Assembly (NCBI GenBank): GCA_002843035.1
Contig: PHEV01000008.1
Span: forward strand, 1-64,000
Length of the DNA stretch: 64,000 nt
Direction of reading: 5' to 3'
Source of the DNA: Actinobacteria bacterium HGW-Actinobacteria-5
Lineage (GTDB): Bacteria > Actinomycetota > Actinomycetes > Propionibacteriales > Propionibacteriaceae
Part shown: positions 47,477 through 58,951 of the stretch, piece after piece
Position numbering within the stretch: position 1 is the first letter of the stretch
Layout: each line of letters begins with the position of its first letter
Made by a program: the position numbers and the translations under genes
Notes under the pieces: model-generated
The model's database searches: none
Seen by the model: the letters and a program-made list of their open reading frames with translations, nothing else
Told to the model about the DNA's origin: nothing

Positions 47477-47532
47477 GAAGTTTTCTTGAAGTACCAGCGC
47501 ATGATTGTGAATCTTTACTTTAGGCTGGCTTC
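47477..47532. promoter_or_regulatory. EamA-LysR divergent regulatory region
   Basis: Only 56 bp, clearly more A/T-rich than its surroundings (ATGATTGTGAATCTTTACTT), typical of a LysR binding and promoter region. TAGGCT (47521-47526) lies exactly 6 nt before the lysR ATG, so that mRNA is predicted leaderless. GAAGTA and TACTTT form a loose inverted pair that may be the LysR box. Confidence 0.5.
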
Positions 47533-48432
47533 ATGGATGTGCGACACCTCGAGCTGCTCCGCGAACTGGCCGACCGCGGCACGGTCACGGCCGTGGCCGA
47601 GGCGACCTTCCGCTCGCCATCGGCGGTGAGCCAGCAGCTGCGCAGCGCCGAGCGCGCGTTCGGCACGGCGCTGGTCGAGCCGGACGGACGTGGACTGCGG
47701 CTCACCGCGGCCGGACGGCTGCTGGCCGAGGGAGCGGTGGGAGTGGCGACCGAACTCGGACGGCTGCAGCGCGGGCTGGACGACCTGCGCGGCCACCCGT
47801 CCGGCGTGGTGCGGATCGCGGGCCTGCCGAGCGCCGTGGAGTTCCTGGTGCCGGGTCTGGTCTCGCGGCTGGCCGGCACCGACGTCGAGGTGGAGCTCAC
47901 CGACGAGGACGTCGCCGAGGCGGACTTCGCGTCCCGGGCGGCCGACCACGACCTGGTGATCGGGCACAGCCTCGCCGACGTACCCGCCGGCTCCGACCGC
48001 CTGCTTACCCGCGTCCTCGCCCACGAGCCGCTCGACGTGGCCCTGCCGGCGTCCCACCGACTGGCCGGGCTCCCCGCACTCACCGCAGCCGACCTCGCGG
48101 GCGAGCGCTGGATCGGGGTGCCCCTGGGCTTCCCCTTCGACACGGTGCGGATCGCGATCGAGAACCGCGCCGGAGTGGCGCTGCAGATCGTGCAGCGGAT
48201 CCGCGACAACCGGGTCGTCGAGGCACTGGTCGCGGCCGGGGTGGCCTGCGCCCTGCTGCCGCGATTCACCACCCGCCCGCGGGCGGGGGTCGTGCTGGTC
48301 CCCCTGACCGACGTGCGCTCGGTGCGCTCGATCGTCGCGCTGGGTCGTCCGGACCGGCTCGAGCGCGCCGCCGTCCGGCTGGCCCTGGGCGCGCTGGTCG
48401 AGAGCGGCCGGGACGCCGAAACCACGCGCTAG
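47533..48432 (+). CDS. LysR-family regulator (EamA partner)
   Basis: 299 aa. The N-terminal HTH reads LELLRELADRGTVTAVAEATFRSP then SAVSQQLRSAERAFG (residues 6-43), followed by the co-inducer-binding domain with its two lobes (GVVRIAGLPSAVEFLVPGL, VLAHEPLDVALPASHRLAG, RDNRVVEALVAAGVACALLP). It is divergent from the EamA exporter and presumably controls it when the exported metabolite builds up. No Shine-Dalgarno; -10 box 6 nt before the ATG. Its effector cannot be read from sequence. Confidence 0.91.
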   Translation: MDVRHLELLRELADRGTVTAVAEATFRSPSAVSQQLRSAERAFGTALVEPDGRGLRLTAAGRLLAEGAVGVATELGRLQRGLDDLRGHPSGVVRIAGLPSAVEFLVPGLVSRLAGTDVEVELTDEDVAEADFASRAADHDLVIGHSLADVPAGSDRLLTRVLAHEPLDVALPASHRLAGLPALTAADLAGERWIGVPLGFPFDTVRIAIENRAGVALQIVQRIRDNRVVEALVAAGVACALLPRFTTRPRAGVVLVPLTDVRSVRSIVALGRPDRLERAAVRLALGALVESGRDAETTR

Positions 48433-49298: not shown

Positions 49299-50093
49299 TC
49301 AGCCCTGCTGGGCCTTGGCCAGCGCCGCCTCGAACGGGCCGGCGTGGTAGGGATCACCGTCGAACAGCGTGCCATTGATCTTGATCGTCGGGGTGCCCTG
49401 GATCGTGGGCAGCCGGTTCGCGGTCAGCTCGTCCAGCCACGCAACGTACTTCTGGTCGGCGAAGCTGGAGACCACGTCCGCAGGTACGCCCACGCCGGCG
49501 GCAAGATCGGCGATCTGCTGATCGCTCAGCCCGGTGGAGTTCTCCGCCGGCTGGTTCTGGTACAGCGCCTGGTAGAAGGCCAGCGCCGCCGAAGGGTCGG
49601 CGTTGGCGACCGTCGCAAACGCGTTGGCAGCCCTGGTCGAGTACTTGGTCCCCTGCGAGGCGTCGTCGAGGAAGTTGAGCGGGAAGATCTCCAGCTTCAC
49701 TCCGCCCGAGGCGACGGCCTGGCTGAGCACACTGCCGTTGGCGCGGTCGAATTCGCCGCAGTAGGGGCAGATGAAGTCGGTGTAGATGGTCACCGTGGTG
49801 GGCGCCGAGGCGTTGCCCAACACGATGGCGCCGGAGGCGTCCACCGCGCTGGGCGCACTCGCCGTGGTCTGGGCGACCGGCACGCTCGCGGCGGTCGAGG
49901 CTCGCGAGGAGCCCATCGCGAGGCCGATGGCGGCAACCACCCCAACGATGGCGGCCGCGGCGACGACTGCGATGCCGACGCGGACGGCGACGGTGCGACG
50001 GCGTGCCGCTTGTTGCTCGGCCAGGCGTTGCTGGCGCAGGGAGTCGCGGCGGTTGCCTGCCACGGGAGGCGGGGTCGGGTTCTGTTTGGTCAT
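49299..50093 (-). CDS. DsbA-like membrane-anchored thiol oxidoreductase, copy 1
   Basis: Predicted to introduce or isomerise disulfides in exported proteins. Starts at ATG 50093 after GAAGGACAG. A cytoplasmic basic N-terminus (DSLRQQRLAEQQAARRRTVA) leads into one membrane helix (VGIAVVAAAAIVGVVAAIGL), then a Ser/Ala linker and a DsbA/thioredoxin-like domain with active site CPYC (TIYTDFICPYCGEFD) and cis-Pro region QGTPTIKING. 264 aa. It is a clear paralogue of copy 2 (51425-52198). The upstream neighbours are a two-TM cysteine protein and VKOR, which would reoxidise it. Confidence 0.92.
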   Translation of the reverse strand: MTKQNPTPPPVAGNRRDSLRQQRLAEQQAARRRTVAVRVGIAVVAAAAIVGVVAAIGLAMGSSRASTAASVPVAQTTASAPSAVDASGAIVLGNASAPTTVTIYTDFICPYCGEFDRANGSVLSQAVASGGVKLEIFPLNFLDDASQGTKYSTRAANAFATVANADPSAALAFYQALYQNQPAENSTGLSDQQIADLAAGVGVPADVVSSFADQKYVAWLDELTANRLPTIQGTPTIKINGTLFDGDPYHAGPFEAALAKAQQG

Positions 50094-50176
50094 GGGGCTG
50101 TCCTTCACTGAGGCGGGGATCTCCGCCGGTAGACGTCTGTTGGCGGCGAGAGCCGCCCGGGCGCGATGGCGCGCGG

Positions 50177-50194
50177 TCGCGCTGCGGAGCGCGA
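50177..50194 (-). terminator. Hairpin between the membrane-protein and DsbA genes, copy 1
   Basis: TCGCGCT-GCGG-AGCGCGA, a perfect 7-bp stem with a 4-nt loop, 14 nt beyond the stop of the upstream gene. No T-tract. The equivalent position in the second copy (52290-52311) also has a perfect hairpin, so an attenuator or mRNA-stability role between the two genes is likely. Confidence 0.5.
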
Positions 50195-50207
50195 GGGTCG
50201 AGTCAGG

Positions 50208-50678
50208 TCAGGAAAGGCAGGACGGAGGGCCGCGGCGCGGGTTCTCCCGCGTCCGGATGACGCCCGGGTACCCGGTCTGGATACGCACCGGCGCCGGCTG
50301 GCGCTGCGGCACCACCAGCCCGGAGAGCTGCACCAGCGCGGCGGCGAGCACCCGGCCGGTAGCGTCGGAGAGCCGACGGGAACCCCGCACCAGGAGCGCG
50401 CCGGCGAGGATCAGCGCAGGGAGCAGCACGAGCTGTACGAGCAGCGTGGCCGCGATCACCAGCGTCCAGCTCACCACCGGGGTGGGCGCGCTCACGCAGG
50501 CCGCACCGGAGGTGTTCGGGATCCACTGGTAGAGCGGGTGGCCGCTGTCGAAGCAGGCCACCACACTGACTCTGGGCAGGCGGAGCAGCAGCGGGACCAG
50601 TGCGAGCACCGTGAGCACACCCGCAGCGAGGCGCGACCGGATCCCCGGACGAGGCAACCACTGCCGAACGCTCTGCAC
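50208..50678 (-). CDS. Uncharacterised two-TM protein with conserved cysteines, copy 1
   Basis: 156 aa, GTG start with TATCGT 7 nt upstream, so it may have its own leaderless promoter. Helix 1 is LAAGVLTVLALVPLLLRLP; then an outer loop VACFDSGHPLYQWIPNTSGAACVSAP with Cys42 and Cys61; then helix 2 (TLVIAATLLVQLVLLPALIL), an Arg-rich stretch, and a tail ending TRENPRRGPPSCLS with Cys154. The paralogue at 52318-52794 keeps all three cysteines (42, 64, 157), the HPLYQWIP motif and the tail motif. I know no family name. The cysteine pair facing DsbA and VKOR suggests a redox partner or a substrate/tether of DsbA. Confidence 0.85.
   Translation of the reverse strand: MQSVRQWLPRPGIRSRLAAGVLTVLALVPLLLRLPRVSVVACFDSGHPLYQWIPNTSGAACVSAPTPVVSWTLVIAATLLVQLVLLPALILAGALLVRGSRRLSDATGRVLAAALVQLSGLVVPQRQPAPVRIQTGYPGVIRTRENPRRGPPSCLS
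50234..50253 (-). other. Hairpin inside the 3' coding end of the two-TM gene, copy 1
   Basis: GCGCGGG-TTCT-CCCGCGT, a stem of 6-8 bp with a TTCT loop, at the codons of the conserved tail motif. The other copy has a perfect 8-bp version at the same place, with over 20 identical bases. Confidence 0.45.
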
Positions 50679-50757
50679 GGGAGGAACGATACCCGCCCGC
50701 GCCAGCGCGACACCTGTCCCCTTGCGGGTGATACTGCGCCCGGTCGAGGGCGGGCCG

Positions 50758-51432
50758 TCAGGTCATCAGCGGCGCGTATTTCGTGACGATCATCGTCACC
50801 ACCGCCATCAGCCAGACCGCAACCGCGAGCGCATCGAGGTCCGCGGCGACGAACCGTCGCGCCGCCCTGCTGGCCCGCTCGGGCAGGAACAGATTGCCGT
50901 CGCGGATGTTCACGTGGGTGAGCGAGGTGAACACCAGCGTCGTCGACAGGGTGACCAGCAGGCACCAGGGACACAGTGCACCAATCACGAAGTACGCCTG
51001 GAAGAACAACCAGTAGGCGAACACGACCCCGAGGGTGTACACGACCTGCGCGGACAGCATGAACCATCGCGGGAACCGGACTCCGCCCAGGCTCGCCACG
51101 GCGATCGTGATCACGACCGGCTCGGCGACCAGGCCCAGAAACGCGTTCGGGAAGCCGAACAGGCTCGCCTGCCACGACACGCCGACCGTCCCACAGCTGA
51201 TCACCGAGCTGATGTTGCACGACAGTGCGGCCTGCGGATCCGCCGCCAGGAGCACCGCGTCCACGGACAGCACGAAGGACGCGAGCAGGCTCAGGCACGC
51301 CGAGGCCAGCATGGTGGTGAAGATCCAGGCGTTCGACTGCCGCACCCGGCGGAGACCGCCGAGGACGGACCGGTGGGCATCGCCGACGACCCGGTCCTGA
51401 TCAGGAGCCACAGTGGCCGACCGCTCACGCAC
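50758..51432 (-). CDS. VKOR-family disulfide oxidase (DsbB-equivalent)
   Basis: Membrane quinone-linked oxidase that reoxidises DsbA-type proteins; actinobacteria use VKOR in place of DsbB. Four to five helices. The loop cysteines are in LSCNISSVISCGTV, and the active site CPWC is in VIGALCPWCLLVTLST. The start is uncertain: GTG 51432 overlaps the DsbA copy 2 stop by 8 bp and fits coupling; the ORF track uses GTG 51465, and GTG 51411 is also possible. About 224 aa. It lies between the two membrane-protein/DsbA pairs, so one oxidase probably serves both. Confidence 0.93.
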   Translation of the reverse strand: MRERSATVAPDQDRVVGDAHRSVLGGLRRVRQSNAWIFTTMLASACLSLLASFVLSVDAVLLAADPQAALSCNISSVISCGTVGVSWQASLFGFPNAFLGLVAEPVVITIAVASLGGVRFPRWFMLSAQVVYTLGVVFAYWLFFQAYFVIGALCPWCLLVTLSTTLVFTSLTHVNIRDGNLFLPERASRAARRFVAADLDALAVAVWLMAVVTMIVTKYAPLMT

Positions 51433-52198
51433 CGGCGGCCCGACTGATCGCGGCAGCCAGCGCACCCGCGCTGTACAGGTCCCCGCTGAACACCTGACCG
51501 TTGACCTTCACCGTCGGCGTCCCCGTGACGCCGGAGTCGAAGGCCTGGTTGGTGATCTGATCCACCCACGGCACGTACTGCTGCGTGGCGAAGGTCGCCG
51601 AGACGGAGTCGGGCACCCCGGCCTGGCGCGCGAACTCCACCAGCTGTGCGTCGGTGAGTCCTGCCGAGCCCTCCGCGGGCTGGTTCGCGTAGAGCAGCCG
51701 GTCGAAGTTCCAGGCGAGCGTGGGATCGGTGTTCGCGACGGTGACGAACGCGTTCGCGGCGCGGGTGGAGTACTTCGTGCCCGACGACTGCGGATCGAGG
51801 AACGACATCGGGTGGATCTCGAGCTTCGCGATGCCTGCGTCCACGGCGGCGGTGAGGTCGTCGCCGTTCACCCGCTCGAACGTCCCGCAGTAAGGGCACA
51901 TGAAGTCGGCATAGATGGTGACCGTGACGGGCGCGTCAGGGTTGCCGATCACGACGGCTCCGCTGTCAGTGGCACCCATCGGGGTGACGAGCGACCCGGA
52001 GGCGGTCCCTGCGGAGCCCGGCCGGGCGACCGCCCAGACAATGACGCAGAGAAGCACGGCGATGACGGCGAATCCGGTGGCCCAGGCGGCCTTGATGACG
52101 AGGCCGGTGCGTCGCGCTGCGCGCGCGTCGGCCTCCTGTTGCCGGCGAAGGGCCTCGCGCCGGTCAGTGGTGGACGTACTTCTCCTGGTGGATGACAT
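51425..52198 (-). CDS. DsbA-like membrane-anchored thiol oxidoreductase, copy 2
   Basis: 257 aa from ATG 52198 (MSSTRRSTSTTDRREALRRQ), with GAAGAAACC upstream; the ORF track adds 29 false residues. Same layout as copy 1: basic cytoplasmic N-terminus, one membrane helix (ATGFAVIAVLLCVIVWAVA), short linker, DsbA-like domain with active site CPYC (TIYADFMCPYCGTFE) and cis-Pro region VTGTPTVKVNG. A Cys lies within the membrane helix here, not in copy 1. Its stop overlaps the VKOR start. The two DsbA proteins are similar throughout but diverged enough to have different substrates. Confidence 0.92.
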   Translation of the reverse strand: MSSTRRSTSTTDRREALRRQQEADARAARRTGLVIKAAWATGFAVIAVLLCVIVWAVARPGSAGTASGSLVTPMGATDSGAVVIGNPDAPVTVTIYADFMCPYCGTFERVNGDDLTAAVDAGIAKLEIHPMSFLDPQSSGTKYSTRAANAFVTVANTDPTLAWNFDRLLYANQPAEGSAGLTDAQLVEFARQAGVPDSVSATFATQQYVPWVDQITNQAFDSGVTGTPTVKVNGQVFSGDLYSAGALAAAISRAAGA

Positions 52199-52289
52199 GG
52201 TTTCTTCGATTCCGGGCGACGGGCGCCCTGCCAGAGTGGTGAGGGAGGGGACGGCGACCAGGCCGTCCGGCGCGCACAGGCGCAAGGAA

Positions 52290-52311
52290 GCCGCGCCGGG
52301 TGCGGCGCGGC
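52290..52311 (-). terminator. Hairpin between the membrane-protein and DsbA genes, copy 2
   Basis: GCCGCGCC-GGGTGC-GGCGCGGC, a perfect 8-bp stem with a 6-nt loop, 7 nt beyond the stop of the two-TM gene. No T-tract. It corresponds in position to 50177-50194. Confidence 0.5.
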
Positions 52312-52317
52312 GCTACA

Positions 52318-52794
52318 TCACAGGCAGGTCGGAGGCCCGCGACGCGGGTTCTCCCGCGTCCGGGTCGCACCGGTGAATCGCGTTCGGACCGGGACGGCCA
52401 CCGGCCGCCGGCCCGGGACCAGGACCGCGCCGAGCTGCACCAGGGCTGCCGCCAAGACGCGATCCACGATCGCGGCGAGACGGCGGACCGCCCGCAGCAG
52501 CATCGCGCCGACCAGAAGCAGTGCCGGCAGCAGAGCGAGCTGGACGATCAGCGTGGCACCGATCATCAGGGTCCAGCCGAGCACCGGCGCGGGGGCGCTG
52601 ACGCAGTGCACCCCGGCGGCGAAATCGCTCGTCGGGATCCACTGGTACAGCGGGTGCGTGCCGTCGAAGCACGCCACCACAATCACCCTGGGCAGGCGCA
52701 GCAGAGGCGGCACCAGCACGAGCACGGTGAGCAGGGCGGCGACGAGCCGCGTCCGGATTCCCGGACGGGGCGACCACCGCCGAAGCCTTTGCAT
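52318..52794 (-). CDS. Uncharacterised two-TM protein with conserved cysteines, copy 2
   Basis: 158 aa, starting MQRLRRWSPRPGIRTRL at ATG 52794 with TATGGT 6 nt upstream (leaderless type); it is the first gene of the five-gene thiol operon. Helices LVAALLTVLVLVPPLL and LMIGATLIVQLALLPALLLVG enclose an outer loop ACFDGTHPLYQWIP...HCVSAP with Cys42 and Cys64. The C-terminal motif TRENPRRGPPTCL places Cys157 next to the end. Conservation between copies is strongest at the N-terminus, the loop and the tail, weakest in the linker, which argues for functional constraint. No family recognised. Confidence 0.87.
   Translation of the reverse strand: MQRLRRWSPRPGIRTRLVAALLTVLVLVPPLLRLPRVIVVACFDGTHPLYQWIPTSDFAAGVHCVSAPAPVLGWTLMIGATLIVQLALLPALLLVGAMLLRAVRRLAAIVDRVLAAALVQLGAVLVPGRRPVAVPVRTRFTGATRTRENPRRGPPTCL
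52341..52360 (-). other. Hairpin inside the 3' coding end of the two-TM gene, copy 2
   Basis: GACGCGGG-TTCT-CCCGCGTC, a perfect 8-bp stem with a TTCT loop, over the codons of the conserved tail motif RTRENPRRG. It could be an RNA signal, or simply reflect the conserved Arg/Pro codons. Confidence 0.45.
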
Positions 52795-52874
52795 GGGTGA
52801 ACCATACCTGCGGGGTTCCTCATCCGTGGACGCGGGAGTCGTCTGGTCTACCGAGCCCGTGTTAGCCTCCTCGC
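52795..52874. promoter_or_regulatory. Divergent promoters of the thiol operon and the cysteine operon
   Basis: 80 bp between two opposite start codons. Leftward, TATGGT (52801-52806, minus strand) lies 6 nt before the two-TM gene; rightward, TAGCCT (52863-52868) lies 6 nt before the leader-peptide ATG. Neither has a Shine-Dalgarno, so both mRNAs are predicted leaderless. The shared region allows joint control of disulfide formation and cysteine synthesis. Confidence 0.6.
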
Positions 52875-52958
52875 ATGCACACCAGCCGCAGGCTCGCCGT
52901 ATCGCTGAGCTACCCGCGCGCCCTTTCGTGCATGTGTTGTTGTCACAGCCTGGCCTGA
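52875..52958 (+). CDS. Cysteine-rich regulatory leader peptide
   Basis: A 27-codon ORF too short for the track: it begins MHTSRRLAVSLSYPRAL, then SCMCCCHSLA and stop. Four of five consecutive codons (19-23) encode Cys, three being TGT in a row, a rare choice in a genome this GC-rich. It is predicted leaderless (TAGCCT 6 nt upstream). In mycobacteria, short leaderless ORFs with a CCC motif control downstream sulfur genes by ribosome stalling when cysteine is scarce. Here the downstream operon ends in serine acetyltransferase, the first enzyme of cysteine synthesis, which makes the same mechanism very likely. Peptide function itself is not expected. Confidence 0.78.
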   Translation: MHTSRRLAVSLSYPRALSCMCCCHSLA

Positions 52959-53053
52959 CCGCAGCCGCCTGAACGCCGCGTCCACCAGCGGCGACACCCT
53001 TCTCCTGTGCGCCCGCTGCGCGACCCCGACCGCCCGACACCAGAGGACCAACC
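52959..53053 (+). promoter_or_regulatory. Candidate cysteine attenuator
   Basis: 95 nt between the leader stop and the DUF4395 start. A perfect 6-bp hairpin CGCCGC-GTCCACCA-GCGGCG (52974-52993) begins 15 nt after the leader stop. TCCTGTG (53003-53009) can pair with the ribosome-binding CAGAGGA (53041-53047) at 6 of 7 positions and so mask it. A ribosome stalled on the Cys codons could change this folding. The pairing is by eye, not computed. Confidence 0.5.
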
Positions 53054-53527
53054 ATGCCCAGCACGACCACCACACCTCCGCTCGTGACCGCCCGGATCGA
53101 CCCGCGCGGCCCCCGCTTCGCCGCCGCCGTCACCTCCGTGGTGCTGGCGGGCACGCTGCTCGCCGGCCCGCAGCTCGGGCTGCCGCTGCTTGCCGTCCAG
53201 GCGTTTGCCTTCGGCGCCGGCGCCCTGCTCGGCCTGCGCTACCAGCCCTATGGCTGGGTCTTCCGCCACTACATCCGCCCGCGGCTGGAGGAACCGGCCG
53301 ACCTCGAGGACGAGCGTCCGCCACGTTTCGCGCAGGCTGTCGGCTTCGGCTTCGCCCTGCTCGCCATCGCGGGTGCGCTCGCCAGCCTGGACGCCCTGTT
53401 CTATGTCGCGGCGGGCTTCGCGCTGGGCGCCGCCCTGCTGAACGCCGTGTTCGACTTCTGCCTCGGCTGCGAGCTGTACCTGTTCGGTATGCGCCTGCGG
53501 GGCCGCCGGGCAGGGGGCTCCCGGTGA
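53054..53527 (+). CDS. DUF4395 membrane protein
   Basis: 157 aa, about four hydrophobic segments (FAAAVTSVVLAGTLLAGPQL, LPLLAVQAFAFGAGALLGLR, AQAVGFGFALLAIAGALASL, AAGFALGAALLNAVFDFCLG). Family marks are IDPRGPRFAAAVT, QPYGWVFRHYIRPRLEEP and the Cys pair FDFCLGCELY. DUF4395 proteins are commonly encoded beside a thioredoxin-like protein and sulfurtransferases in actinobacteria; the function is not established. RBS CAGAGGACC 6 nt before the ATG, possibly masked in the attenuator. The stop overlaps the next start by 4 bp. Confidence 0.9.
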   Translation: MPSTTTTPPLVTARIDPRGPRFAAAVTSVVLAGTLLAGPQLGLPLLAVQAFAFGAGALLGLRYQPYGWVFRHYIRPRLEEPADLEDERPPRFAQAVGFGFALLAIAGALASLDALFYVAAGFALGAALLNAVFDFCLGCELYLFGMRLRGRRAGGSR

Positions 53528-54744
53528 CCGGGCTGTGGGTGGTCGGCGCGACCGTCCTGCTCGCGCTCGGCTTCGGCCTCTTCCGCCGGGCCACGGACGG
53601 ACGGATCGCGTCGGCCGTCCCCGCACGCGAGGGCGACCTCGGCCCGTCCCGGCTCGGCCGTCCCCTGGGTGAGCGGGCCACGTTCGTCCAGTTCTCCTCG
53701 GAGGTCTGCGCTCCGTGCCGGGCCACCAGCCGCCTCCTCGGCGAGCTGGTCGACCAGGAGCCCGGCGTCGCGCACGTCGAGCTCGACGCCGCGGAGCACC
53801 TCGACCTGGCCAGGGAACTGGGAATCTCCCGTACTCCCACGGTGTTGTTGCTCGACAGTGAGGGAGCGGTGCGCCACCGGATCGTCGGCGCCCCCCGCAG
53901 GCCGGACGTGCTGCGGGCCTTGCAGAACATCCTCGAAGGAACGAAGGCACCCGATATGACCACCACCCATCGCGACGACGTGTGGAGCCGCATCCGCACC
54001 GAGGTCCGAGCCGATGCGCAGGCCGAGCCCGCCCTGGCGAGCTTCCTGCACACCAACGTGCTCTCGCACTCCCGGCTCGAGGACGCCCTGAGTTTCATCC
54101 TGGCCAGCAAGCTGGGCAGCGAGACGATCACCTCGCTCAGCCTGCGCGAACTGATCCGGCGCGCCTTCGACGACGACCGGGCGATCAGCGTCGCCGTCCG
54201 CGAGGACCTGCGGGCAGTACTCAGCCGCGACCCGGCGTGCCGGGGCTACTCGATGCCGCTGCTGTATTTCAAGGGCTTCCACGCCCTGCAGGCCTACCGC
54301 GTGGCGCACTACTACTGGACCCACGACCGCCCCGCCCTGGCCCTGTACCTGCAGAGCCGGATCTCGGAGGTGTTCGCCGTCGACATCCACCCCGGCGCCC
54401 GGATCGGGAAGGGGATCATGTTCGACCACGCCACGTCCGTGGTGATCGGCGAGACTGCGGTCGTCGAGGACGACTTCTCGATGCTGCACGAGGTCACCCT
54501 CGGCGGCACCGGCAAGGTCGGCGGCGACCGGCACCCGAAGATCGGCAAGGGTGTGATGATCGGTGCCGGCGCCAAGGTGCTCGGCAACATCCGGGTCGGC
54601 GAGGGCGCCCGGATCGGTGCCGGCTCCGTGGTGCTGGAGGACGTCCCGCCGTACACAACGGTGGCCGGCGTCCCCGCGCGTCCGGTCAGCTACCCGGAGA
54701 ACGCCCACCCGGCCCTGGACGACCTGGACACCATCGAGCGCTGA
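53524..54744 (+). CDS. cysE: Membrane-anchored thioredoxin fused to serine O-acetyltransferase (CysE)
   Basis: A 406-aa fusion. Residues 1-25 form a membrane helix (VVGATVLLALGFGLF). Residues 45-140 are a thioredoxin domain with active site CAPC (Cys62, Cys65; VQFSSEVCAPCRATSRLL) and the cis-Pro region SRTPTVLLL. From Met145 the sequence is a full CysE: the helical domain (EVRADAQAEPALASF, LLYFKGFHALQAYRVAHYYW), the left-handed beta helix with VDIHPGARIGKGI and the catalytic His in DHATS, and GGTGKVGGDRHPKIGKGVMI. There is no stop between domains; GAAGGAACGAAGG before Met145 (ATG 53956) could also give CysE alone. The tail lacks the terminal Ile used by E. coli CysE to bind CysK. Start GTG overlapping DUF4395. 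Confidence 0.93.
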   Translation: MTGLWVVGATVLLALGFGLFRRATDGRIASAVPAREGDLGPSRLGRPLGERATFVQFSSEVCAPCRATSRLLGELVDQEPGVAHVELDAAEHLDLARELGISRTPTVLLLDSEGAVRHRIVGAPRRPDVLRALQNILEGTKAPDMTTTHRDDVWSRIRTEVRADAQAEPALASFLHTNVLSHSRLEDALSFILASKLGSETITSLSLRELIRRAFDDDRAISVAVREDLRAVLSRDPACRGYSMPLLYFKGFHALQAYRVAHYYWTHDRPALALYLQSRISEVFAVDIHPGARIGKGIMFDHATSVVIGETAVVEDDFSMLHEVTLGGTGKVGGDRHPKIGKGVMIGAGAKVLGNIRVGEGARIGAGSVVLEDVPPYTTVAGVPARPVSYPENAHPALDDLDTIER

Positions 54745-55049
54745 CCCGGTTCCGCCCCGCGCGTGCCCTGCGACCGTTGCGCCGGACGCGGGCACTCCGG
54801 GGACGGTTCCCTTCCCGTTCACGTGGTCCGTCCCCATTACCGTTCACGGGCACTCGGGGACGGTTCCCTTCCCGTTCACCTGATCCGTCCCCATTACCAT
54901 TCACGCAGCTACACCCCTTGTCAGGAAGCTGAACGAAAAGGGGACCGTCCCTGTGAACCGAAGGGGACACACCCGGTGAACGGGAGAGGAACCGTCCCCG
55001 CAAGCCCGGGCGATCGTGGGGGACGGAGTCGTCCGGATAGGGTCAGGGC
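54745..55049. repeat. Tandem and inverted repeat array, GAACCGTCCCC family (copy 6)
   Basis: The 305-bp gap after cysE is mostly repeat. Two direct units starting GGGGACGGTTCCCTTCCCGT lie at 54799 and 54856 (57-bp period), each followed by TCCGTCCCCATTACC. From 54933 come inverted parts (AAAAGGGGACCGTCCC, GAGGAACCGTCCCC to about 54999). No gene is visible. The promoter of the permease gene (TAGGGT at 55038-55043) is at the right end. Confidence 0.85.
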
Positions 55050-56497: not shown

Positions 56498-58951
56498 GTG
56501 AAGGTTGCGACGAGAGTGCTATCCGTGACGGTTGGGCTTGCCCTTGCGCTGGGTACTGCCCTGGTTCAATCCCCGGCCGCGAGTGCGTCGGTCTCGTCCA
56601 GCACCAAGACCAAATTCATCTCCAGCCTGGTCAGCGTCGCGCAGAAGACGCAGAACAAGTTCGGCGTCCCGGCGTCGGTGCTGATCGCCCAGGCCATCGA
56701 GGCGTCCGACTGGGGGACCTCCTCGGTCGTGTCCAAGGCGAAGAACTACTTCAACACGCCCTGCAGCGCCACCATGACGGCCAGCCAGTTCGCCCAGCTC
56801 GCCGACGACCAGGTGGGCAAGCCGTACGTGCTCGGCGCCGAGACCGCGATCAGCGACCCGAACCCGCCGAAGTTCGACTGCTCCGAGCTGGTCCAGTGGC
56901 TCTTCGGACGCTCCGGCAACCCGATCACCGACCTCGCCGCCTCGCAGTACAACGTGACCAAGAAGGTCTCCGGGTCCCCGAAAGTGGGCGACCTGGTCTT
57001 CCTGCGCAACAACCCGGCCCGGTCCAACGGCATCGGCCATGTCGCGGTGCTGACCAAGAAGCTCAGCAACGGGGACTGGCGGATCATCGAGGCCCGCGGG
57101 CATGCCTACGGCGTCGTCCGCTCCACCCTCAGCTACTGGAAGTCGCGCTCCTACTACGCCGGACTGCGCCGCTACCCCTCGTTCACCCTCGCCAACGGTG
57201 ACAGCGTGACCGCATCCGCCTCCGGCATCTACAAGTCCGGCTGCACCACGATCGGCTCGACGACCTACTCGAAGTTCTCCTCGATGACCAACTCGTTCTA
57301 CGGCAACGCCTCGGCCATCACCAGCGATTCCGCCTACGCCGACGCCCGCAAGGTCATGTCGAGCATCCCCAAGTTCGTCGACGAGCTCGCCAAGGTCGTC
57401 CAGCCGAAGGACGCCAGCGGCTACGCCAAGACCCTCGACGACCTGATCGCCAGCTACAACCTCACCGACTACGACGTCGTCCCGATCGGTCTCGTCCTCG
57501 AGTCCGGTGACAGCGGCTTCCGGGTCTCAGCCCTGCAGAACCTGCTGAAGGCTGCCGGGTACAGCACCAGCATCACGGGCAAGTACGACTCCGCCACCGT
57601 CTCCGCGGTGAAGAAGTTCCAGAAGGCGAAGGGGCTCACCGTGGACGGCCAGTCCGGCCGTTACACCCTGACCGCCCTGTTCTCCAAGCTCAGTTCGGGC
57701 ACCAGCGGCACGCTGACCAGCGCCCTCAACGCACTGCTCGGTGGGCTCGGCTACAGCACAACCAGCGGCAGCTCGTTCGGTTCGGCCACCCTGGCCTCCC
57801 TGAAGTCCTTCCAGGCCACCGCCGGACGCAGCCCGAGCGGGAACGTCGACGCCAACACCTGGGCCGCGCTGTTCATGGCCCTGGACTCCAGCCAGCCCGC
57901 GGTCTCCGGCACGGCCAAGGTCGGCCAGACCCTCACCGTCGACGCCGGCACCTGGGGCCCCGGCACCGTGGCCCTGTCCTACCAGTGGTACCGCGACTCG
58001 TCGGCGATCGGCGGGGCGGACGGCACCAGCTATGCCGTGCAGGCGGACGACGCAGGCTCGAAGCTGTCGGTCGAGGTCAGCGGGCTCAAGACCGGCTACA
58101 CCGTGACCGCACGCACGTCGGCGGCCACCAGCATGGTCGACAACGCGTCCTTCACGGCGACCCCCGATCCCACCGTCAGCGGCACCGCGAAGATCGGTCA
58201 GACCCTCACGGCCAGCGCGGGAACATGGAAGCCGACCCCGGCCAAGCTCACCTACCAGTGGCTGCGCGGCGGCAAGGCGATCTCCGGAGCGACGAAGTCC
58301 AGCTACACGGTGCTGGTGGATGACGCCGGCGCCAAGCTCTCCGTCGCGGTCACCGGCAGCAAGGACGGGTACACCTCGGTCACCACCACATCGGACGCGA
58401 CGAGCGCCGTCAGTGGCGCCGTCTCGGGATCGACCCCGAAGATCAGCGGAACCGCGACGGTCGACAGCACGCTGAAGGCGTCCGCGGGGACGTGGGGGCC
58501 ATCCGGGGTGAAGCTGGCCTACCAGTGGTACCGCGGCGCCGACGCGATCGACGGCGCGACCGCGACCAGCTACAAGGTGACCGCGCAGGATTCGGGCAAC
58601 CAGCTCTCTGTACGGGTCACCGGCTCCCTCGACGGCTACGCCGCGGTCACCAAGGCCTCCGCGCCGCTCGCCGTCGGCAAGCTCACCTTCACCAGCACCT
58701 ACACTCCGAAGATCAGCGGCACCGCGAAGGTGGGCAAGAAGCTCGTGATCGTGCGCGGCGTGTGGAAGCCGGGACCGGTCACCTACCGCTACCAGTGGTA
58801 CCGCGGGTCGTCGAAGATCGCGGGCGCCACCGGCAAGAGCTACACGCTCAAGTCCTCCGACAAGGGCAAGACGATCAAGGTCAAGCTGGTCGTGTCCAAG
58901 TGGTACTACTCGACGGTCACGAAGGTCAGCAAGAGCGTCAAGGTCTCCTGA
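56498..58951 (+). CDS. Secreted cell-wall hydrolase: NlpC/P60 nested in a glucosaminidase domain
   Basis: 817 aa. A Sec signal peptide ends near residue 30 (SPAASASVS). Residues 36-90 are the N-half of a GH73-like glucosaminidase (KFGVPASVLIAQAIEASDWG, KAKNYFNTPC). Residues 95-225 are NlpC/P60 with catalytic Cys128 (FDCSELVQWLFG) and His181 (GIGHVAVL). Residues 235-325 look like the returning C-half of GH73 (KFSSMTNSFYGN...YAKTLDDLIASYNLTDYD). Two peptidoglycan-binding domains follow (about 330-395 and 398-460), then four Ig-like repeats of ~85 residues (SGTAKVGQTLTVDAGTWGP...YQWYR). It should cleave cross-bridge peptides outside the membrane. The usual GH73 ESGWG reads EASDWG, so glucosaminidase activity is doubtful. 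Confidence 0.87.
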   Translation: MKVATRVLSVTVGLALALGTALVQSPAASASVSSSTKTKFISSLVSVAQKTQNKFGVPASVLIAQAIEASDWGTSSVVSKAKNYFNTPCSATMTASQFAQLADDQVGKPYVLGAETAISDPNPPKFDCSELVQWLFGRSGNPITDLAASQYNVTKKVSGSPKVGDLVFLRNNPARSNGIGHVAVLTKKLSNGDWRIIEARGHAYGVVRSTLSYWKSRSYYAGLRRYPSFTLANGDSVTASASGIYKSGCTTIGSTTYSKFSSMTNSFYGNASAITSDSAYADARKVMSSIPKFVDELAKVVQPKDASGYAKTLDDLIASYNLTDYDVVPIGLVLESGDSGFRVSALQNLLKAAGYSTSITGKYDSATVSAVKKFQKAKGLTVDGQSGRYTLTALFSKLSSGTSGTLTSALNALLGGLGYSTTSGSSFGSATLASLKSFQATAGRSPSGNVDANTWAALFMALDSSQPAVSGTAKVGQTLTVDAGTWGPGTVALSYQWYRDSSAIGGADGTSYAVQADDAGSKLSVEVSGLKTGYTVTARTSAATSMVDNASFTATPDPTVSGTAKIGQTLTASAGTWKPTPAKLTYQWLRGGKAISGATKSSYTVLVDDAGAKLSVAVTGSKDGYTSVTTTSDATSAVSGAVSGSTPKISGTATVDSTLKASAGTWGPSGVKLAYQWYRGADAIDGATATSYKVTAQDSGNQLSVRVTGSLDGYAAVTKASAPLAVGKLTFTSTYTPKISGTAKVGKKLVIVRGVWKPGPVTYRYQWYRGSSKIAGATGKSYTLKSSDKGKTIKVKLVVSKWYYSTVTKVSKSVKVS

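Follow-up and report, generated by a model that had tools for sequence, protein, structure and literature searches.

Our analyses indicate, with high probability, that a 27-codon upstream open reading frame (uORF) preceding genes for a DUF4395 protein, a thioredoxin and the serine acetyltransferase CysE is a leaderless leader sensing charged tRNA-Cys and controlling all three genes, and that it was historically a cysE leader between which and cysE the DUF4395 and thioredoxin genes have since been interposed. The locus lies in the window, i.e. the whole stretch of DNA analysed here, comprising the first 64,000 nucleotides of contig PHEV01000008.1 of Actinobacteria bacterium HGW-Actinobacteria-5 (Propionibacteriaceae). 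Cysteine-responsive, ribosome-mediated attenuation by the uORF is well supported by comparison with related genomes; its transcription start, the stalling and the cysteine response are what we infer from the sequence. In the proposed mechanism, the leaderless uORF would be translated and the ribosome would stall at its Cys codons when charged tRNA-Cys is low, so that under cysteine shortage stalling would raise DUF4395, thioredoxin and serine acetyltransferase. The elements of the locus, all on the forward strand, are the following:

52863-52868, forward strand: -10 box TAGCCT of a predicted leaderless-type promoter, spaced 6 nt from the uORF ATG
52875-52958, forward strand: leader uORF of cysE type, 27 codons, peptide MHTSRRLAVSLSYPRALSCMCCCHSLA, with homology to solo-cysE leaders
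52929-52943, forward strand: Cys codons 19 and 21-23 (TGC ATG TGT TGT TGT), predicted stall site
52959-53053, forward strand: C-rich spacer (C 0.49, G 0.25) from uORF stop to DUF4395 start, candidate readout region
52974-52993, forward strand: perfect hairpin CGCCGC-gtccacca-GCGGCG (6-bp stem, 8-nt loop) without a U-tract
53042-53047, forward strand: Shine-Dalgarno sequence AGAGGA of DUF4395, whose ATG is at 53054
53054-53527, forward strand: DUF4395 protein (PF14340, E 8.8e-39), 157 aa
53524-54744, forward strand: in-frame fusion of thioredoxin and CysE (SATase) in one reading frame, 406 aa

The uORF, which runs from an ATG at 52875 to a TGA at 52956-52958, had been proposed in an initial annotation of this DNA, and its main components were found as described there: a 27-codon frame with Cys at codon 19 (TGC) and codons 21, 22 and 23 (all TGT), close to the stop, a -10 box 6 nt ahead of the start codon, a perfect hairpin with a 6-bp stem behind the stop, and the DUF4395-thioredoxin-CysE operon beginning 95 nt downstream, thioredoxin and CysE being here one fused frame. 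The GTG start of thioredoxin overlaps the DUF4395 stop. The fusion is peculiar to this genome, the two proteins being encoded by separate genes in six relatives, and it may be genuine or result from an indel in the assembly; a possible internal CysE start is the ATG at 53956, preceded by AAGGA. No other ORF on either strand of the window combines a leaderless-type -10 box with a close Cys cluster, and the Cys-codon pattern is unique across the whole genome. The start context, a TANNNT motif 6-7 nt upstream of the ATG, keeps its spacing in relatives.

Conservation was assessed upstream of DUF4395 by accepting as a uORF any frame of 8-60 codons with at least two Cys codons, within 350 nt of DUF4395, whose ATG or GTG was preceded by a TANNNT motif ending 4-8 nt before it. 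The set comprised 108 loci from Propionibacteriaceae, Nocardioides, Kribbella, Streptomyces-type and other actinobacteria, which are mutually related, so that species counts do not represent independent events. A leaderless Cys-rich uORF was found in 75 of these loci, against a mean of 2.0 (maximum 7) in dinucleotide shuffles and none on the reverse strand; uORFs with at least three Cys numbered 30, against 0.9 (maximum 3) in the shuffles. The peptides diverge strongly among groups, with promoter spacing and terminal Cys codons kept. The window is rich in short ORFs, as would be expected if the uORF were a chance frame in GC-rich DNA, but this explanation is refuted by the conservation across families, the promoter spacing and the comparison with shuffles, and we assign it a negligible probability. 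The search of relatives suggested with the initial proposal shows the uORF as first ORF of the operon in seven operon-type genomes and a Cys uORF before cysE at 10 of 13 solo loci. The predicted Cys-sensing leader in front of the operon gains support from its relatives, with the solo cysE genes that carry a Cys leader of their own providing an independent link to cysE.

The origin of the leader was examined in 20 genomes of the genus (Propionicimonas-type Propionibacteriaceae) with a long cysE, seven of which have the uORF-DUF4395-Trx-CysE arrangement and keep the CMCCC-type peptide, and 13 of which have cysE elsewhere. A leaderless Cys uORF directly before a separate cysE within the same genus is new here: it was found in 10 of the 13 (e.g. 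MQISPRLAQSLSLACALLRCCRG, MHSCPRVSAIAESVRALRCCCCG, MSARTEVIVPIGMNRRVLCCCCC), and uORFs with at least three Cys were observed in nine of the 13, against 0.08 expected. No Cys leader was detected at the solo cysE of G004, G021 and G042 (L161, L187, L190). G004 and G042 have in common an upstream stretch, TATACAGGCGCACACACGCCTTG, perhaps another control element. Three other solo loci, L158, L159 and L189 (genomes G007, G008 and G022), seem to contain an extra small ORF that follows the Cys leader, is preceded by an SD-like stretch of its own and ends near the cysE start.

In several solo-cysE genomes DUF4395 has a separate and different Cys leader (e.g. MSASVYTARCQGCQRARMCCRRP). We compared leader coding DNA, stripped of the ATG and the Cys run and scored against codon shuffles, and supplemented this by peptide comparison and DNA alignment. 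The window leader matched the cysE leader of G007 and G008 with z about 9, and the operon-clade leaders as a group matched it with z 6.1-11.6 (p<0.001); this strong homology is limited to these two solo genomes. No match was obtained between operon-clade leader DNA and DUF4395 leaders (all p>=0.08). Descent of the window leader from a diverged Ms5788A- or DUF4395-type leader was accordingly rejected, the sequence homology being to the cysE leader.

Solo cysE loci are flanked by a LysR gene on one side and an NlpC/P60 gene on the other, and relatives of these two genes flank the window locus, LysR upstream (47524-48411) and NlpC/P60 downstream (56498-58951). The leader homology and these matching flanks suggest that DUF4395-Trx was inserted behind the cysE leader, ahead of cysE itself; this would be the simplest history, a disulfide-bond gene block and a permease being added on either side. 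As DUF4395-Trx now lies between leader and cysE, a single sensor, originally that of cysE, would govern DUF4395, thioredoxin and cysE throughout the operon clade.

Leaders of this kind have precedents in mycobacteria. Both M. smegmatis and M. tuberculosis have an Ms5788A-type Cys leader upstream of cysA2/Msmeg_5788, and ribosomes occupy it in the former (Shell 2015, PMC4633059), where polycysteine leaders also attenuate according to PMC9031893 and PMC13236596, which cite Canestrari 2020. The window uORF resembles these leaders in its predicted leaderless start, its Cys run near the stop and its place as first ORF of a sulfur or cysteine operon, and Ms5788A-type leaders elsewhere stand, as it does, directly before DUF4395. 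It differs in lacking the LTKRRAVDxCR core and in being homologous to a cysE leader, and its operon contains cysE instead of cysA2/sseC. The leaders described by Seliverstov 2005 (PMC1262725, in the part available) from Mycobacterium, Bifidobacterium longum and Propionibacterium acnes, the last belonging to the same family as the window, likewise have Cys runs near the stop and no obvious terminator; they precede the cys operon or cbs, and that part names neither cysE nor DUF4395. In Rhodobacterales, uORFC-8-2 upstream of cysS (PMC8632094) shares the tandem Cys codons and acts through ribosome-mediated attenuation, but with an intrinsic terminator bearing a U run and with UGC dominant, whereas the window leader type has no U-tract and UGU dominates. 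The window uORF is almost certainly a cysteine sensor of the kind known from mycobacteria, with cysE as a new target.

Two NCBIfam models describe known leaders, NF042933 (Ms5788A, curated cut-off 45 bits) and NF042934 (cis_reg_atten, 27 bits). Leaders of the LTKRRAVDxCRxxSSLCR type before DUF4395 match both below the cut-offs. Six genomes above the NF042933 cut-off were checked; in two of them (L131 and L132, e.g. MSARLEPMLTKRRAVDLCRVAGCCCCCCSC) DUF4395 follows the leader directly, and in the stretch searched in the other four our query found no DUF4395. Of 149 genomes in the order, 92 have an NF042933 match; among the matches listed, none is from the genus of the window and only one from its family. 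The window peptide matched no NCBIfam model (NF042933 not even at E 10, and NF042934 not at all), and NF042933 had no match in the window's own genome. When individual sulfur-gene loci of that genome were located by search, including a sulfite/nitrite reductase-like gene and cysK, a second leaderless uORF, MFEPTFVVTALENNRAGSMCCAC, ending in MCCAC, was found on contig C254 (locus L148), 96 nt upstream of the sulfite/nitrite reductase-like gene, and none with Cys codons at the cysK locus.

The peptide is very Cys-rich and adjoins redox genes, and leaderless uORFs may raise downstream translation (PMC4633059), so that the uORF might instead serve translational coupling or encode a small functional protein, for instance a metal- or redox-binding one, and not monitor tRNA charging. 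Across classes, however, little is common to the peptides beyond Cys codons close to their end, a similar promoter spacing and a position before sulfur genes. Because these are mainly what is shared, codon sensing fits better than a protein function, and we regard coupling or a small protein as improbable.

As to the readout, an attenuator of the trp type was considered and rejected, since no U-tract terminator follows the uORF: the only match of an intrinsic terminator scan overlaps the Cys codons inside it, the hairpin at 52974-52993 lacks a U run, and TTTT is absent from all seven operon-clade spacers. No Rfam family was found at the leader, whole-leader folding was not better than that of shuffles (z +0.61), and consensus folding of the clade leader, in an alignment in which two rows duplicate two others, gave an unconvincing 16 pairs with one changed on both sides.

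Translational attenuation, as the mycobacterial system is described, would have the spacer hide the DUF4395 ribosome binding site (RBS) until stalling at the Cys codons makes it accessible. The initial annotation had likewise noted a sequence able to pair with the RBS, and a short pairing can indeed form with the stretch TCTCCT at 53001-53006, confined to a 4-bp UCCU:AGGA core. Yet the RBS is not more hidden than expected by chance, since its opening cost of 3.4 kcal/mol is below the mean for shuffled spacers (5.0 +/- 1.5), and across the operon clade it is also slightly lower (mean z -0.75). With a ribosome modelled at each codon, the Cys-codon position opened the RBS no more than the stop position, and the further suggestion that stalling relieves RBS sequestration finds no support in folding or opening energies. 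Complementarity between the Cys tract and the post-stop sequence, which speaks for this reading, exceeds shuffles in DUF4395 leaders from the rest of the Propionibacteriaceae (mean z -1.59, se 0.26, n=9) and is weaker in the operon clade (z -0.85, se 0.47); solo cysE leaders and Ms5788A-like leaders do not show it. We therefore hold translational attenuation to be doubtful.

Alternatively, when cysteine is present the ribosome would end at 52958 and Rho would load on the C-rich untranslated spacer; when cysteine is short, a ribosome held up on the Cys codons would stay near RNA polymerase and block the Rho step. Consistent with this, no U-tract terminator is present, all but two of 58 spacers have more C than G (56 of 58; mean 0.42 vs 0.28) where the DNA upstream of the promoter is balanced, and PMC1262725 weakly proposed Rho for cys leaders of mycobacteria and P. 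acnes. The C bias is, however, not specific, because DUF4395 coding DNA is C-rich too (0.40 vs 0.32), and the spacer would scarcely be shielded by a ribosome stalled upstream of it. This scheme strikes us as a serious possibility at somewhat under even chances, and we slightly prefer a Rho-type readout to translational control.

The choice of Cys codons shows a regularity of its own. In 59 distinct DUF4395 leaders, TGT accounts for 90 of 157 Cys codons, compared with 15 of 221 in the DUF4395, Trx and CysE genes of the same loci (Fisher p 4e-28, an overstatement given the relatedness among species). Of the 59 leaders, which come from several families, 53 have TGT as their final Cys codon, against about 93% TGC and 7% UGU in the genes, and 53 have TGC as their first. 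Solo cysE leaders have 29 TGT and 15 TGC. Because the complementarity between Cys tract and post-stop sequence is confined to some groups, an explanation of the TGT bias through decoding is an attractive possibility. A broader reading, which we advance tentatively and consider rather unlikely, is that the Cys leader works as a portable sensor and that ending on UGU is a decoding choice making stalling more sensitive to tRNA-Cys charging, and not the product of a fixed RNA structure. If so, new genes, such as DUF4395-Trx, here fused to CysE, would come to respond to cysteine once inserted downstream of the leader and upstream of cysE. The UGU regularity opens the question of the best-sensing Cys codon to a direct codon-swap test.

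By these results, cysteine attenuation would reach the committed step in cysteine biosynthesis, cysE, within a family whose leaders of this kind go unmarked by any NCBIfam model. Among the sister genomes the same genes follow different Cys leaders, and related leaders precede different first genes, a natural experiment in which the leader's own contribution is testable. A cysteine-linked operon also offers a possible context for DUF4395, which our literature search found linked to cysteine in no paper.

The surroundings of the operon have features of their own. The disulfide-bond gene block at 49299-52795, on the minus strand and divergent from the cysteine leader, encodes two DsbA-like proteins and VKOR, and contains what seems to be a duplicated unit of a small membrane protein plus DsbA; a DsbA relative occupies the equivalent place in the relatives L032, L035 and L037. 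Between cysE and an amino acid permease gene lies a 57-nt tandem repeat (CGGGGACGGTTCCCTTCCCGTTCAC...) at 54798-54905, with an inverted copy at 54963-55008.
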